Origin: Thermococcus cleftensis
Lineage (GTDB): Archaea; Methanobacteriota_B; Thermococci; Thermococcales; Thermococcaceae
Length of the DNA stretch: 64,000 nt
Direction: 5' to 3'
Assembly: GCF_000265525.1 (NCBI RefSeq)
Contig: NC_018015.1
Span: forward strand, 1,648,322-1,712,321
Part shown: piece by piece, positions 39,544 to 45,845 of the stretch
Layout of the letters: every line of letters starts with the position of its first letter
Position numbering within the stretch: position 1 is the stretch's first letter
The notes under the pieces: model-generated
What the model saw: the letters and a program-made list of their open reading frames with translations, nothing else
Databases searched by the model: none
What the model was told of the DNA's origin: nothing
Translations under genes and position numbers: made by a program

Positions 39544-39675
39544 GCTTTCACCCCCAAATGGGCTCGAGGGAGGACCGCGTCATCACCCATCAGGAGGGAT
39601 GAATCTCTTCATCGCCCACGTTAGTTCGAGGTGGGGTTTATAAACTCACCCTCCAAAACCTATTAGGTGACCCAA

Positions 39676-40731
39676 ATGAAAACCGAGAGAGCGAAGGAGA
39701 TACTCCTCCAGCTTTTAAAGATACCCTCCCCCTCCGGCCAGGAGGACAGGATAATGCTCCACATCATGGAGTTCCTTCACAGGCTCGACTACGACGTGAG
39801 GATAGAGAGCGACGGCGAGATAATAGACTTGGTCGTGAACCCGGACGCTGACCTCTTCTACGAGGTGCACGTGGACACAATACCGATCCGCGCCGAGCCC
39901 TTCGTGAGGGGCAACATAATCTACGGCACCGGCTCGAGCGACATAAAGGGGGGAGCCGCGGCTATACTCCTCATGCTGGAGAACCTCCGCAGGGAAGGGA
40001 AGGAACTCAACGTCGGCATAGTCTTCGTCAGCGACGAGGAGCTGGGCGGCCGCGGGAGTGCGCTCTTCATGGAGAGGTATAAACCAAAGATGGCGGTAGT
40101 GCTTGAGCCGACCGACCTGGAGGTTCACATAGCCCACGCGGGCAACATCGAGGCCTACTTCGAGGTGGACGGTAAAGAGGCCCACGGAGCGTGCCCCGAG
40201 AGCGGGGTGAACGCGATAGAGGAGACCTACAAGATGCTGGAGGAGATGAAGAGGCTCGAGCCCTTCAAGGCCAGGGGCGAGTTCTTCGACCCTCACATCG
40301 GAATCCAGGAGCTGGTCTGTGAGAACCCGGTCTACCTGATCCCAGCCCTCTGCAGGGGAAGGCTTGAGGCGAGACTTTTACCAGAGCAGGAGGTAGAGGA
40401 CATACTCGACCTGCTCGACCCGATATTCGACGAGTACACGCTGAAGTACGAGTACACCGAGATATGGGACGGCTACAAGCTCGAACCGGACGAGGAGATA
40501 GTCCAGCTGGCGAAGAAGGCGATGGAAGTCACGGAGATAGACGAGTTCGGCGGGATGAGGAGCTGGACCGATGCCATAAACTTCATGTACAACGGAACCA
40601 GAACCATAGTGTTCGGCCCCGGCAACCTCGACATCTCCCACACCAAGAACGAGCACATCGACGTGAGGGACGTGGTTACCGCCAGCGAGTTCCTGAAGGC
40701 CCTCAACGAGATTTATGGAAAGAGCGGGTGA
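39676..40731 (+). CDS. M20-family metallopeptidase/deacylase
   Basis: 351 residues from ATG 39676 (GGTGACCCAA; the upstream in-frame start lies before the site). Two-metal motifs: EVHVDTIP (His, Asp), GTGSSDIKGG (bridging Asp), SDEELGGRG (Glu base), VLEPTDLEV (Glu) and the C-terminal HTKNEHI. A dimerisation/lid domain lies at about 160-260 (GKEAHGACPESG). ArgE/DapE/CPG2-like enzymes remove acyl groups or dipeptide ends; the substrate cannot be decided from sequence. Possibly Thermococcus-type N-acyl-amino-acid or LysW-linked deacylation. Confidence 0.85.
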   Translation: MKTERAKEILLQLLKIPSPSGQEDRIMLHIMEFLHRLDYDVRIESDGEIIDLVVNPDADLFYEVHVDTIPIRAEPFVRGNIIYGTGSSDIKGGAAAILLMLENLRREGKELNVGIVFVSDEELGGRGSALFMERYKPKMAVVLEPTDLEVHIAHAGNIEAYFEVDGKEAHGACPESGVNAIEETYKMLEEMKRLEPFKARGEFFDPHIGIQELVCENPVYLIPALCRGRLEARLLPEQEVEDILDLLDPIFDEYTLKYEYTEIWDGYKLEPDEEIVQLAKKAMEVTEIDEFGGMRSWTDAINFMYNGTRTIVFGPGNLDISHTKNEHIDVRDVVTASEFLKALNEIYGKSG

Positions 40732-40763
40732 ACCTTCTCTTCCCATCACCTTTTTAAGGAAGG

Positions 40764-40788
40764 CCCCCCACCAGTTACTGGTGGGGGG
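40764..40788. repeat. Palindrome A before the ATPase gene
   Basis: Arms CCCCCCACCAG and CTGGTGGGGGG (11 bp, perfect) around TTA, directly before ATG 40790. The right arm contains the gene's only ribosome binding site (GGTGG), so the RNA hairpin would hide it. A second copy of the core lies just after the stop codon. Confidence 0.85.
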
Positions 40789-40789
40789 T

Positions 40790-41854
40790 ATGCTCTTCAA
40801 CCCGAGGCCGAAGACCAGAAGGGAGGAACTGTACGACAGAAGAGATGAGCTTGAGCGTGTCGAGGACGGCCTGAGGAAGGGCCTTGGCCTCGTTACGATC
40901 CTCGGAATCAGGCGCCTTGGAAAGAGCTCACTCCTGAACGTTGCCCTGAATGAACTCCCCTACGGGAGCGTCAAGATCGACGCGAGAAAGGTCTATTCCG
41001 AGTTCGGCAATGTGCCGAGGGAGGCCCTGGCAAAGCTCATCCTCGAGGGGTTCCTGAAGAGGTCGGGAAAGGAGCGGGCCAGGGAGCTAGCGAGAAGCAT
41101 CAGGGGCGTGCGCCTCCTTGGATTCGGAGTTGAGGTTGAGGTCGAGAGGGGAGTAAACCTCTACGACCTCCTTGAGCGCATAAACTCCCTCGGAGAGCGC
41201 TTTGTCATCGCGATAGACGAGGCCCAGTACCTGCGATTTTCGAATTCCCGCTACCCGGAGCTCATCGCGTGGGCCATCGACGAGCTTGAGAACGTGAGCT
41301 TTGTCCTGACGGGCTCGGAGGTTGGCCTGCTGGAGGACTTTCTGAGGCTTCATGACCCGGGCTCGGCGCTCTTTGGGAGGCCCCACCTGGAGATCAGGCT
41401 GAAGCGTTTTGAGAGGCACCAGAGCGTGGATTTTCTTGAGAGGGGTTTTGACGAGCTCGGCCTTAGGGTTTCACGGGAGGAGATCGATGAGGCGGTCGAT
41501 GAGCTGGACGGCATAGTCGGCTGGCTCACCCTCTACGGCTACAACCGCTACCTCGGGCTGGGCCACTCCCGGGCGCTCCAGAGGCTCAAGGAGGACGCCA
41601 GGAGGCTGATTCTGGCGGAGTTCTCCCGGCTGAGGGAGCTATCCCACCGCTACGAGCTGGCGATGCGGGCGGTGGCCAACGGGAAGCACCGCTGGAAGGA
41701 GATAAAGGAGACCGTGGAGATTCTTGAGGGGAAGAGGATAGACGACAAGAACTTCTCCAACGTCCTCAGCAACCTCGTCCGTTACGGCTACCTTGAAAAG
41801 ACCGTTGATGGCTACGTGATCCCCGACCCACTCGTGGAACTGGCTTTCAGATAG
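40790..41854 (+). CDS. Archaeal AAA ATPase flanked by palindromes
   Basis: 354 residues from ATG 40790. Walker A is ILGIRRLGKSSLLNVA (about 39-54), Walker B is FVIAIDEAQYL, and VSFVLTGSEVGLL is the sensor. A winged-helix C-terminus (KNFSNVLSNLVRYGYLEK) follows, and there is no nuclease-like tail. The start is dictated by GGTGGGGGG four bases upstream. TATA box TTTTTAAGG is at about 40751. The gene is bracketed by copies of the same palindrome, which makes it look like an independent cassette. Role unknown; relatives are numerous in Thermococcales. Confidence 0.85.
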   Translation: MLFNPRPKTRREELYDRRDELERVEDGLRKGLGLVTILGIRRLGKSSLLNVALNELPYGSVKIDARKVYSEFGNVPREALAKLILEGFLKRSGKERARELARSIRGVRLLGFGVEVEVERGVNLYDLLERINSLGERFVIAIDEAQYLRFSNSRYPELIAWAIDELENVSFVLTGSEVGLLEDFLRLHDPGSALFGRPHLEIRLKRFERHQSVDFLERGFDELGLRVSREEIDEAVDELDGIVGWLTLYGYNRYLGLGHSRALQRLKEDARRLILAEFSRLRELSHRYELAMRAVANGKHRWKEIKETVEILEGKRIDDKNFSNVLSNLVRYGYLEKTVDGYVIPDPLVELAFR

Positions 41855-41859
41855 GGGGG

Positions 41860-41876
41860 CCACCAGTTACTGGTGG
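41860..41876. repeat. Palindrome B after the ATPase gene
   Basis: CCACCAGTTACTGGTGG, identical in core to the copy at 40764-40788, and followed by GGGGG as there. It starts 5 bases after the stop codon. Confidence 0.85.
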
Positions 41877-41890
41877 GGGGGTTAAGGGTA

Positions 41891-41942
41891 CCAAAAACCC
41901 CGGAAAGTGGAACCCTTTCCTGCATGGAACCGGGGGTTTTGG
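41891..41942. repeat. Imperfect inverted repeat downstream of ATPase gene
   Basis: Arms CCAAAAACCCCGG and CCGGGGGTTTTGG (12 of 13 paired) around 26 bases. It may act as an RNA hairpin, terminator-like structure, or element end, next to palindrome B. Confidence 0.55.
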
Positions 41943-41995
41943 GGGCCCGTCGGGACTTCGAAAACCTTATCTCCAATAGCGATGAAGTTTGAGGG

Positions 41996-43034
41996 GTGGT
42001 GGCTTTGTCACTTCTGGCCTTGACCGGGATGTTCATATTTGGGGGGAAGAAAAAAAGGAAGACCTTGGAAGAAGTACGTAAAGAACTGGCGAAGAAGTAT
42101 GGGCTGCCCGAAGAAGTTATAGACGGTATAATAGGCGCATACATATCATTCGACGGATATGTAGAGTTCATAAGGCAAATAGACCCGGAAAAAAACTATG
42201 AAAGGGTAAAAAAAACCCTTGCAGTTGATGAAATTGGCGACTCAAAACGTGCCAGAGCAATCCTTAACCATGAGTACCATTCTTACATTGGGAGAGAGAC
42301 CCAAAGTCACGGGGATACCATATACTCCACGGAGTGCTCGCTGTTCTTGTTGCAAACCATCTGGGCAAGGAACACGAAGATATCGGGTGGGCAATAGGTG
42401 ACGCAATATACGACTATCTCGTCATGAAAAACAAAAGCATAGAGGACATTGAAAAGAGGCCTTCAGAGTTCGCAAAACTTGTTGTGGAAAAATTACAGGA
42501 AAGAGAAATACTTGGACCATCGGTTGCCAAGTCCACCGAGCGCGCAATAAAAGAAGCGATTCCCCCCACGATAAAACTCATCAATAAAATGTGGCCAAAG
42601 GATCATGATGTCAAGCACCTGCGAGCAATGGAAGAGGCATTTTCATCGCAGACTAAAAATCCGCTAAGAACTCTAAAAGCCGCAGGAATAGACGTTACAA
42701 AAGAGGTCGAGGAGCTCAGGAATGCCATCGCAGAGATTACAGGAAAGAAGCCCAAGGCGAGGGGGAGCACCTCCAGGGGGTCGAGGAGAGGGCCAAGTCG
42801 AAACGCCCCGTAACCTCTGCCGGCCTTCCCCCCGAGCTCCTCGCCATCGTCAAGGCCCTCGAGTTCTCGGACTTCTCGGAGAGGGCGATGGAAAAGGCGG
42901 AGAAGGAACTCATCAGGCTCGTGGACGGGCTCCTGGAGGACGAGGCCAACGCCCCCCAGCTCTTCCACGCGGTCAAACTGCTGAGACTCGTGCAGAAGGG
43001 CGACGTCAAGAGCATCAAGAAGCTGGGAGGTTAA
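41996..43034 (+). pseudogene. Frameshifted gene of unknown function
   Basis: The frame starts near GTG 41996 (hydrophobic LSLLALTGMFIFGG, then KKKRKTLEEVRKELAKKYG), shifts at about 42315-42325 to VLAVLVANHLGKEHEDIGWA, and shifts again in the G5 run at about 42763 to a helical C-terminus (EHLQGVEERAKSKRPVT ... VKSIKKLGG, stop 43034). One missing base explains each shift. The reconstructed protein has about 345 residues, a short N-terminal membrane-like segment and long helices. His/Glu-rich HEYHSYIG and NHLGKEHEDIG could bind metal. I do not recognise the family. Base composition is AT-rich up to about 42720 and GC-rich after it. Confidence 0.65.
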
Positions 43035-43067: not shown

Positions 43068-45845
43068 TCATGAACCCTCTTCCCCACCCTCTTCCTTCTC
43101 CTTCCTGTCCACCCAGAAGCGCCTCGTCCTTATGAACTGCCTCTCCCGCTCCATGAGGGCAACGAGGAGTGCCTCGCCCCGGTACTGCGCCAGAAGCCTC
43201 GCCGCAGTGTCCGGCCCGGTTCCGTAGCTGGCCAGTGCTAAAACTGCCTCGAAGCCGTAGGAATCCACGAGGTCCGCAGCTTTCAGCAGCTTCCTGTATG
43301 TCCTCTCCGCCCTCCTCTCCAGCGGCTTCCCATGGCGAACCTTCTCTAGGACGGGGAGAAACTCCTCCGCATCTATCGGGTGGGCAACCGCGAGCATCTT
43401 CGAGCCGCAGCGCGGGCACTGTCTTAGCTCTATGTTTTGAAGCCTCGCCACCCTCGTCCTCGAGTGCCACCCGCAGTTGGTGCACACTAAAACGACCTCG
43501 TGGTCGAGCAGTCTCTTCCTGAACAGCTCAAGTACCTCGTCCCTCTCCAGCGTCCCGCTCAGCAGGAACTCGCCGCCGACGGCCATGTTCAGCCGGGCAA
43601 GCGTTGAAGGCTCCTTCCTGAGAACCGTTTTCACCCTCATCGTGCCCCTCTTGAGCATCTCAAGGACGAGCTCTCCCTTTCTTACGTCAACCTTGTCGTG
43701 GTAGAGCTCGTTCAAGGTCTCGCGCTCAATCACCGTCCCCTCGAAGAGCCTCTCGACCTTCCTTATCTTTGCGTCCTTCCTCAGGGCCCCGAAGCGCTTC
43801 GCCACGTTCGTCATTCTCCACCGGTAGGCGTGGGAATCCCTCAGCGCGCGGGAGACTATAAACTCCAAACTCCCCGGCTCCTGGTAGAGGTAGCGCTTCA
43901 CCTCCTCAGGGTTCAGCTGGAAGGGCGTCTTGAAGACCACCGCATGCCCCTGGCTCCTCACGGAGAAGACCCTGCCGTAGCGCAGTATGAGGAGCGAGTG
44001 AACGAGCCGCCCGAGGGCCTCGTTGGCCCGGTTTCCAAAGTCCGCGTGGATTACCAGCGCTTTCGGCGTGCTCTCGACGACGATGTCGCGGTCGGTCGAG
44101 AAGGGCTCGTCCCTGATCTCGTCAAACGCCCTTCTCAGCTCCTCCTCGCTGAACTCCACCCCCTCCAAAAGCCCCTTCGCCTTCTCGAAGTCGAAAGCCA
44201 GCTCCCTCTTCAGCCTGCCGACGTCGAGGGCCACTCCAAAGGGAACGGGGATCATCTCGCCCTCCCAGCTCGGTATCGCGCTCTCCAGGCTCTTGCTCTC
44301 GCGGACCTTCAAAAGCCTCGCCTCGTCGTCGATCTTGAGCACGATCCAGCTCCGGCCGTTCATGACGAACTCCATGCCCTCCTCCAGGTCCATCACGAAG
44401 CTCTCATCGAGCCTTCCAATGACGTGTCCGCTCTTGGAATCGAAAACCCTCCACGAGACTTCGTCAGGAATCGTTGAGAGGTTCTCGTAGTAGTACTGGA
44501 ACGCGCCGCGGCGGAGATAAAGGAGACCGTTCTCCCCGTCGTAGCCTATGAGTCTCGCGTCCTCGAGAACCTTCAGAACGTCGAGGTAGTCGCTCCAGCT
44601 CAAATCCCTGTAAACGTAGGCCCGCCTCGCTATCTCGTAGGGCCTCTCGCGAGGAAGGCGTTTGTACTCGATGAGCAGGCCGACGATGAAGTGAGCTAAA
44701 ACGTCCAGCCCACCCATCGGCTCGACCGCCTCGAATCTGCCCTCAAGGGCGTGCTTCGCTATGACGAGGCTCTGGAGGTAGTCCTCGACGTTCGTCGCTA
44801 TGACGTAGCCCTCGCTGACCTCTCCGATTCTATGTTTTGCCCTCCCGACGCGCTGGACGAGCCTGTTCACCTGGCGCGGGCTCATGTACTGGATTACGAC
44901 GTCAACGTCGCCTATGTCTATGCCGAGCTCCATTGAGGACGTGCATATCAGCGCTTTAATCCTGCCCTCCTTGAGGGCCTTTTCGGCCTTGATTCTGGCT
45001 TCCCTCGAAAGCGAGCCGTGGTGAACCTCAACGGGCTTCCCCCAGGCCTTGAGGCGGTGCGCCAGAATCTCCGCGAACTGCCGCGTGTTGGTGAATATCA
45101 GAGCTTTCCCGTGCTCCTCGACGACCCCCCACAGGGCCCTCAGTCTAGAGGCTATCTCGGGCGAGACGCTCAGCTCCCGGGCGAGGTCGAGGTCCCTCCC
45201 CTCTGGTCTCGGGTAGAGAACGTGGAAGCGATAGCGCTTTTTCCAGTTCGGCTTGACTATTGTATCTGCTCCAAGCCACTCCATCACTTCCTCCTCGTTG
45301 CCTACCGTTGCAGTCATGCCTATTCTCCTGAAGTCGGCAATTTCGGCGAGCCTTTCAAGGTTCAGGAGGAGCTGTGCTCCCCTTTTGTTGTCCACCAGCT
45401 CCGCTATCTCATCGACGATGACGAACTTCACGTTCTCGAGGTGCTTCCTGAGGGATTTGACCGTCAGGATAACCCCCATCGTTTCGGGAGTGATTATGAG
45501 CATCTGCGGGGGATTCTTCGTCTGCTTTGCCTTCCTGTAGGCTGAAGTGTCGCCGTGCCTCACCTCTACGGTTATTCCAAGTTTCCTTCCCCACCATTCC
45601 AGCCTCTCGAGCAGGTCCCTGTTGAGGGCCTTGAGCGGTGCGATGTAGAGTGCAGAAATTGGTTTAAGTCCCCCTTCAAGGATTTCGTTGAATACCGGTA
45701 GAACTGCCGCTTCAGTCTTTCCTGAACCTGTGGGTGCTATTATCAGGACGCCCTTTCCTGAGCTAACCTCCCTGAAGGCGTCCTGCTGGAGCCTGTTGAG
45801 CCTTCCGAAGCGCTCCCTGATGGCCTTCCTGAGGAGGGGGTGCAT
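43068..45845 (-). CDS. Lhr-type superfamily 2 helicase
   Basis: 925 residues. Motif I is IAPTGSGKTEAAVLP, II is VIVDEIAEL (DEIA, not the usual DEIH), III is GMTATVGN, V-VI is CTSSMELGIDIGDVDVVIQYMSPRQVNRLVQRVGRAKHR. The helicase core spans about 1-420, then a winged helix and the Lhr-specific beta-barrel region, and near the C-terminus a four-Cys zinc motif (VCTNCGWHS, CPRCGSKML). Lhr enzymes unwind DNA/RNA hybrids and branched DNA during repair. It begins 3 bases after the PIN gene's end, so it may be the downstream part of that operon. Confidence 0.88.
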   Translation of the reverse strand: MHPLLRKAIRERFGRLNRLQQDAFREVSSGKGVLIIAPTGSGKTEAAVLPVFNEILEGGLKPISALYIAPLKALNRDLLERLEWWGRKLGITVEVRHGDTSAYRKAKQTKNPPQMLIITPETMGVILTVKSLRKHLENVKFVIVDEIAELVDNKRGAQLLLNLERLAEIADFRRIGMTATVGNEEEVMEWLGADTIVKPNWKKRYRFHVLYPRPEGRDLDLARELSVSPEIASRLRALWGVVEEHGKALIFTNTRQFAEILAHRLKAWGKPVEVHHGSLSREARIKAEKALKEGRIKALICTSSMELGIDIGDVDVVIQYMSPRQVNRLVQRVGRAKHRIGEVSEGYVIATNVEDYLQSLVIAKHALEGRFEAVEPMGGLDVLAHFIVGLLIEYKRLPRERPYEIARRAYVYRDLSWSDYLDVLKVLEDARLIGYDGENGLLYLRRGAFQYYYENLSTIPDEVSWRVFDSKSGHVIGRLDESFVMDLEEGMEFVMNGRSWIVLKIDDEARLLKVRESKSLESAIPSWEGEMIPVPFGVALDVGRLKRELAFDFEKAKGLLEGVEFSEEELRRAFDEIRDEPFSTDRDIVVESTPKALVIHADFGNRANEALGRLVHSLLILRYGRVFSVRSQGHAVVFKTPFQLNPEEVKRYLYQEPGSLEFIVSRALRDSHAYRWRMTNVAKRFGALRKDAKIRKVERLFEGTVIERETLNELYHDKVDVRKGELVLEMLKRGTMRVKTVLRKEPSTLARLNMAVGGEFLLSGTLERDEVLELFRKRLLDHEVVLVCTNCGWHSRTRVARLQNIELRQCPRCGSKMLAVAHPIDAEEFLPVLEKVRHGKPLERRAERTYRKLLKAADLVDSYGFEAVLALASYGTGPDTAARLLAQYRGEALLVALMERERQFIRTRRFWVDRKEKEEGGEEGS

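Follow-up and report, generated by a model that had tools for sequence, protein, structure and literature searches.

An ATPase_2 gene of Thermococcus cleftensis lies between two copies of a private palindrome, a putative operator at which the gene is probably gained and lost

The ATPase_2 proteins (PF01637) are archaeal AAA+ ATPases of the SSO1545/PABY2304 type, and the ATPase described here belongs to the same family over its full length. For this family, our search of the open-access literature turned up neither genes with a private operator at each end nor empty sites. Three better known systems offer partial parallels. The origin box of Orc1/Cdc6 initiators is a dyad with a G-run; our ATPase resembles these initiators in its AAA+ and winged-helix composition and in its fold along the full length, and its proposed target is likewise a dyad with a G-run, but sequence identity to them is low (14–18%) and the target would be the promoter and the 3′ end of the ATPase gene itself rather than an origin. 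In integron cassettes and at Campbell-type att sites, one ORF and one repeat are exchanged with exact boundaries, while the resident promoter stays at the empty site. The unit described here is similarly made of an ORF and one repeat, has exact boundaries and leaves the promoter behind; it lacks an integrase, however, and its repeat would be the operator in the gene's own promoter. Toxin–antitoxin operons are autoregulated, carry a private operator at the promoter and are patchily distributed. Our unit shares with them the putative private promoter operator and the patchy distribution, but is a single gene in which no toxin or antitoxin partner was seen, and its operator is repeated downstream.

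The gene lies in a 64,000-nucleotide stretch of the T. cleftensis genome (hereafter the window; Table 1). The 17-mer CCACCAGTTACTGGTGG occurs exactly twice in the window, in the same orientation and without mismatches (40768–40784 and 41860–41876), and these are the only exact copies in the whole genome of 1,950,313 bases. Shuffled versions of the 64 kb gave a mean of 0.05 matches at up to three mismatches, and none of 100 shuffles reached four. The 5′ palindrome ends one base short of the ATG at 40790, and the 3′ palindrome starts five bases past the stop TAG (41852–41854), so that the sequence-only reading was right in placing the same palindrome directly at both ends of the gene. The arms that it gave as 11 bp in the 5′ copy measure 12 bp around a one-nucleotide centre (40764–40788), and the poly-G extension that it described on one side of both copies has to be amended for the 3′ copy, whose 8-bp arms are flanked by a G-run on both sides. 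It had also raised the prospects that the 17-mer might be scattered over many unrelated genomic locations or be absent around homologous ATPase genes; the genome scan, with its two exact copies, speaks against the former, and the palindrome was found around homologues. A genome scan with the 15-mer core and two mismatches returned three extra places, against eight per strand for a reversed control pattern, and no additional good sites that would indicate a wider regulon. A second inverted repeat (41897–41950, around AACCCCGG...CCGGGGGTT) directly follows palindrome 2 and is also found in the empty site of the nearest relative (G013).

Table 1. Coordinates, in the window, of the ATPase gene, its palindromes and its neighbours
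Feature	Position	Strand	Remarks
M20 peptidase (acetylornithine deacetylase family), left neighbour	39667-40731	+	Fixed left flank; in 88/94 genomes
TATA box of ATPase promoter (predicted)	40752-40757	+	TTTTAA, full TTWTAW match, ~34 nt before ATG
Palindrome 1 (promoter copy; 17-mer core 40768-40784)	40764-40788	.	12-bp arms, 1-nt centre; proposed operator
ATPase gene	40790-41854	+	354 aa; PF01637 ATPase_2, C-terminal winged helix; SSO1545/PABY2304-like AAA+ (STAND/Orc-like)
Palindrome 2 (17-mer core as direct repeat 3′ of the stop codon)	41860-41876	.	
Lhr-type helicase, right neighbour, convergent	43068-45845	-	Right flank in many genomes

The ATPase passes the family threshold of the PF01637 ATPase_2 profile (53.3 bits; gathering cut-off 33.2), and Pfam places an MCM_C-type wHTH at residues 285–337. 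Sequence matches over the full length were found in the PDB to 2qen (P. abyssi PABY2304; 8e-64) and 2fna (SSO1545; 4e-48), and the AlphaFold model (mean pLDDT 93.2) matched the same two structures in fold (Z 38.9, rmsd 2.3 over 338, and Z 37.7, rmsd 2.1 over 344, respectively). The next neighbours in the model search, at Z 16–22, were archaeal Orc2/Orc1-Cdc6, plant NLRs, CED-4 and TnsC. The match to archaeal Orc/Cdc6, including the DNA-bound structures 2qby and 2v1u, extends over the full length at 14–18% identity; the likeness is at the level of fold only, as no Orc/Cdc6 family was among the Pfam hits and NCBIfam gave no hit for the ATPase. Judged by its predicted structure, the protein is a STAND/Orc-type AAA+ ATPase. 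The PADLOC defence models gave no strong match (best 17.5 bits, E 4e-4, to candidate systems and partial). The ATPase is the only ORF with a family match between the repeats, where no transposase or recombinase was found, and the viral contigs and plasmids searched contained no relatives of it, though such absence is no proof. Further downstream, two overlapping ORFs of 133 and 159 aa (41996–42813) look like one protein with a frameshift near 42330–42400; homologous pieces lie at the matching position in G039 (71 and 92%), and none of them is above the Pfam cut-off.

The position of the palindrome relative to the predicted promoter bears on whether it acts as DNA or as RNA. A TTWTAW match centred 28–42 nt before the start codon was present in 82 of 108 homologous upstream regions and in 16 of 108 downstream controls, and the homologues share the order TATA box, dyad, start codon. 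In Thermococcus onnurineus, about 27 nt separate the centre of the TATA box from the transcription start, and the median leader length is 12 nt (PMC5316973). By this geometry, the transcript would start near 40781, in the right arm of the palindrome, so that the mRNA would lack the left arm and the hairpin would lie outside the message. The predicted fold has −26.2 kcal/mol (z −3.6) when both arms are included, and −8.9 kcal/mol (z +1.3) from 40781 on. The sequence-only reading had proposed an RNA hairpin that closes the ribosome binding site unless melted by heat or a ligand. The fold of such a thermometer or riboswitch would be very stable if the full palindrome were transcribed, but the TATA box predicts a start within the palindrome (on the T. 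onnurineus geometry), the clades differ in palindrome sequence at the same promoter position, and a search of Rfam over 40600–42100 gave no match at E up to 0.1. On the predicted start, the weak residual fold and the missing Rfam match, we regard the RNA hairpin as unsupported and sequestration of the ribosome binding site as extremely improbable.

The sequence of the dyad varies by clade (clades were defined by single linkage at 58% identity, and their numbers are our own), and many dyads have in common an inner AGT-N-ACT-type core and its spacing. That quite different palindromes occupy the same place in other ATPase_2 clades is what would be expected of protein-binding DNA. From these comparisons, the best-supported role of the palindrome is that of a protein-binding DNA operator, which is presumably bound by the ATPase's own winged helix. 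In clade 5 (L199–L205), the putative recognition helix (residues ~318–331) changes together with operator type, with three types among six proteins; since these are six sequences in three related groups, a recognition helix that tracks its operator is only suggested.

The M20 peptidase provided a fixed point for a survey of the locus, which covered 88 of 94 Thermococcaceae genomes and in which the palindrome was sought up to 220 nt from the peptidase stop. It was present, at 14 or more of 16 positions, in 35 of the 88 M20 loci and in none of 324 control windows (highest 11). Ten of these 35 loci are occupied by an intact ATPase, two hold a decayed one (G053, G055), four hold a reversed ATPase of another clade, and 19 have exactly one palindrome and no clade-3 ATPase. 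Together with G042, which is split across two contigs at the palindrome, this makes 11 of the 88 loci with an intact clade-3 ATPase between two palindromes; in all 11 the second copy follows the stop codon, in two cases with one or two changes. In G042, the assembly break between contigs C1 and C8 falls exactly inside the palindrome. The nearest relative of the window, G013, is empty: 57 nt on the left are 100% identical to the window, one palindrome follows, and the next ~75 nt are nearly identical to the window sequence past copy 2. A precise empty site, as is looked for in insertion elements, is present both in this comparison and at the 19 single-palindrome loci, and the search for empty sites that had been advised from the sequence alone was borne out. 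The TATA box is kept at most empty sites (16 of 17 scanned with a loose pattern, and G070 and G071 by eye).

At solo sites the palindrome is 94% identical, compared with 50% at the silent sites of M20, and these genomes have no cognate ATPase, suggesting either very recent loss of the gene or another use of the site. No good palindrome was found at the locus in 20 of the 55 genus genomes placed on the M20 tree. The M20–Lhr site looks like an insertion hot spot. In G041, G047, G067 and G060 (L128, L133, L118 and L136, respectively) it holds an ATPase_2 gene of a different clade in reversed orientation, which has its own palindrome (CCATACAGTATGG), adjoins a single palindrome of the window type and is a pseudogene in G060.

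The M20 tree comprised 55 genomes of the genus, with G062 and G066, both partial, and genomes lacking the peptidase left out. Placing the 11 intact occupied rows on this tree takes 11 changes, ten of them forced by well-supported branches, and no two intact carriers are sisters. At four-fold sites, identity of the ATPase exceeded that of M20 in G031–G029 (88 versus 52%, with Lhr at 55%), G061–G042 (95 versus 66%), G024–G042 (78 versus 50%) and window–G039 (95 versus 79%, with Lhr at 83%), while of the remaining pairs (55 were compared in all) most were near saturation in both genes. In G061–G063, by contrast, the right flank is 91% identical and the ATPases are 65–78% identical in DNA. The silent-site excess of the ATPase and the opposite pattern in G061–G063 indicate that lineages have exchanged the gene while its site stayed fixed. 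In G031–G029 the exchanged tract slightly overruns the palindromes on both sides, and the window–G039 pair shows a mosaic that takes in the 3′ half of the peptidase gene; a sharp jump in identity exactly at the palindromes was absent from window–G039 and was not exact in G031–G029. Since the tracts end near but not exactly at the palindromes, ordinary homologous recombination could be the carrier. The suggestion that the palindromes are the ends or target sites of a cassette is in part upheld, by the precise empty sites, the scattered distribution and the silent-site evidence for exchange. What the data show directly are the two private repeats, the precision of the empty sites, the scattered occurrence of the gene and an exchange younger than the flanks.

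The arrangement was also sought in the wider family. Among the ATPase_2 matches listed, with weaker paralogues covered in part, 117 loci were entered and 113 scored (two near a contig edge and two without a strong match were dropped), and 108 went into the TATA scan. The 80 nt before the start were compared with the 120 nt after the stop, and a direct repeat score of at least 12 was required. Direct repeats upstream and downstream were found in 36 of the 113 loci, which are related and do not represent 36 independent events, and in none of 1945 control comparisons between other parts of the same loci. Four clades each have a different private repeat at both gene ends: the 17-mer of the window; a repeat of the TAACTTACCCC type, 38 nt long; one of the TAACTTGCAGGGG type, 40 nt long, in which the downstream copy starts with the stop codon itself; and one of the TTTGGACATCCCCCATAATGGGG type. 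The recurrence of the arrangement with different repeats in other ATPase_2 clades is likewise directly established. Clades 2, 5, 6 and 7 have the palindrome upstream only. The clade-3 gene itself is found at other loci in another genus, with the upstream palindrome alone (G004, one G010 copy and G011), with a degenerate upstream palindrome (G007, G005) or with none (the second G010 copy), and never with a downstream palindrome, indicating that bracketing is not obligatory.

Besides the window's clade, two more of these four clades have empty sites with a solo operator, at other loci. They were seen at an RNA-ligase locus in G014 (promoter kept), G022 and G033, among the 30 of 52 matches (51 genomes) viewed, and at an HDAC-type locus in G051 (promoter kept), G043, G062 and G018, among the 30 of 39 matches viewed; those in G022, G033, G043, G062 and G018 are without a promoter. 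The window's own genome has a degenerate solo clade-1 operator at its RNA-ligase locus (L267), with no clade-1 ATPase adjoining. Outside Thermococcales, a bracketing repeat was found in two of 13 loci tested, clearly in L313 (Thermotogae), which has the same arrangement with yet another dyad, and more weakly in L320, where the repeat is not palindromic and the start is uncertain; L315 scored under its own control. In G080, of another genus, three dispersed CCACCAGTTTCTGGTGG copies occur in one genome (L328–L330).

The main rival to gain and loss of the gene at its operator sees in the palindromes a pair of purely regulatory operators, of which the downstream one serves DNA looping or a read-through block; there would be no dedicated mobility, and the empty sites would be passive deletions brought about by slippage or by homologous recombination between the short direct repeats. 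We give this a smaller though still appreciable chance. In clade 1, the downstream copies preserve half-sites and spacing although the bases within the spacer vary (L066, L179), which gives them the look of binding sites that are being maintained and not simply left over from recombination; the TATA box retained at most empty sites is what deletion would leave. Pure loss, however, does not explain why distant carriers have recent ATPase alleles in common at the same site, nor the G061–G063 pattern, which ordinary homologous recombination could add, and some of the solo operators elsewhere have no promoter. It is very unlikely, in our judgement, that the ATPase gene by chance split a bidirectional terminator or insulator lying between convergent genes: solo palindromes do sit between M20 and Lhr, which are convergent, and stay conserved where the ATPase is absent, but more than a third of the genus genomes on the tree (20/55) manage without a good palindrome there, the same palindrome also stands ahead of ATPase genes at unrelated loci of another genus, and the repeats of other clades behave likewise elsewhere.

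More would be asked of the ATPase if it were a minimal site-specific mobile gene, whose Orc/TnsC-like AAA+ product recognises its own operator and directs insertion or excision there by means of a host recombinase, the operator doubling as attachment site and resident promoter. The op-ORF-op versus op geometry with its exact boundaries, the independence of 11/11 occupied rows on the M20 tree and the landing of another ATPase_2 clade by the same palindrome in four genomes fit such a gene, as does the presence of TnsC and MuB among the fold neighbours, though that AAA+ fold is widely shared. We nevertheless think it rather unlikely, given that the unit has no recombinase or nuclease, that the viral contigs and plasmids searched contained no copies and that no copy in another genus has a palindrome on each side. 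Just as doubtful is its extension to a class of single-gene mobile modules, in which a clade-specific dyad would be promoter operator, only genomic target and attachment site at once. The gene would then insert promoterless beside a resident TATA-plus-operator landing pad that is left intact on excision, different clades would have different addresses, and the scheme would extend to Thermotogae.

On balance we favour, with some confidence, the explanation that the ATPase is a self-regulating STAND/Orc-like module whose own repeated operator is the site of the recombination by which it is gained and lost. The palindrome would be the private DNA operator of the ATPase, spanning the transcript start, and the winged helix of the protein, or of its multimer, would most likely bind it and repress the gene. 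The unit, consisting of the gene and one repeat, would be gained or lost via recombination between the two repeats; loss would leave exactly one operator at the empty site, usually with the TATA box, and the unit would move between species into the same site. The machinery is probably that of host homologous recombination, with an active role of the AAA+ protein possible. Thermococcales genomes carry many copies of ATPase_2 genes. A private operator on both sides of the gene, combined with the precise empty sites, assigns a defined DNA address to each clade, which makes binding target, autoregulation and movement directly testable. Should the operator double as attachment site, the ATPase gene would count as a mobile unit of unusually small size that encodes no recombinase.
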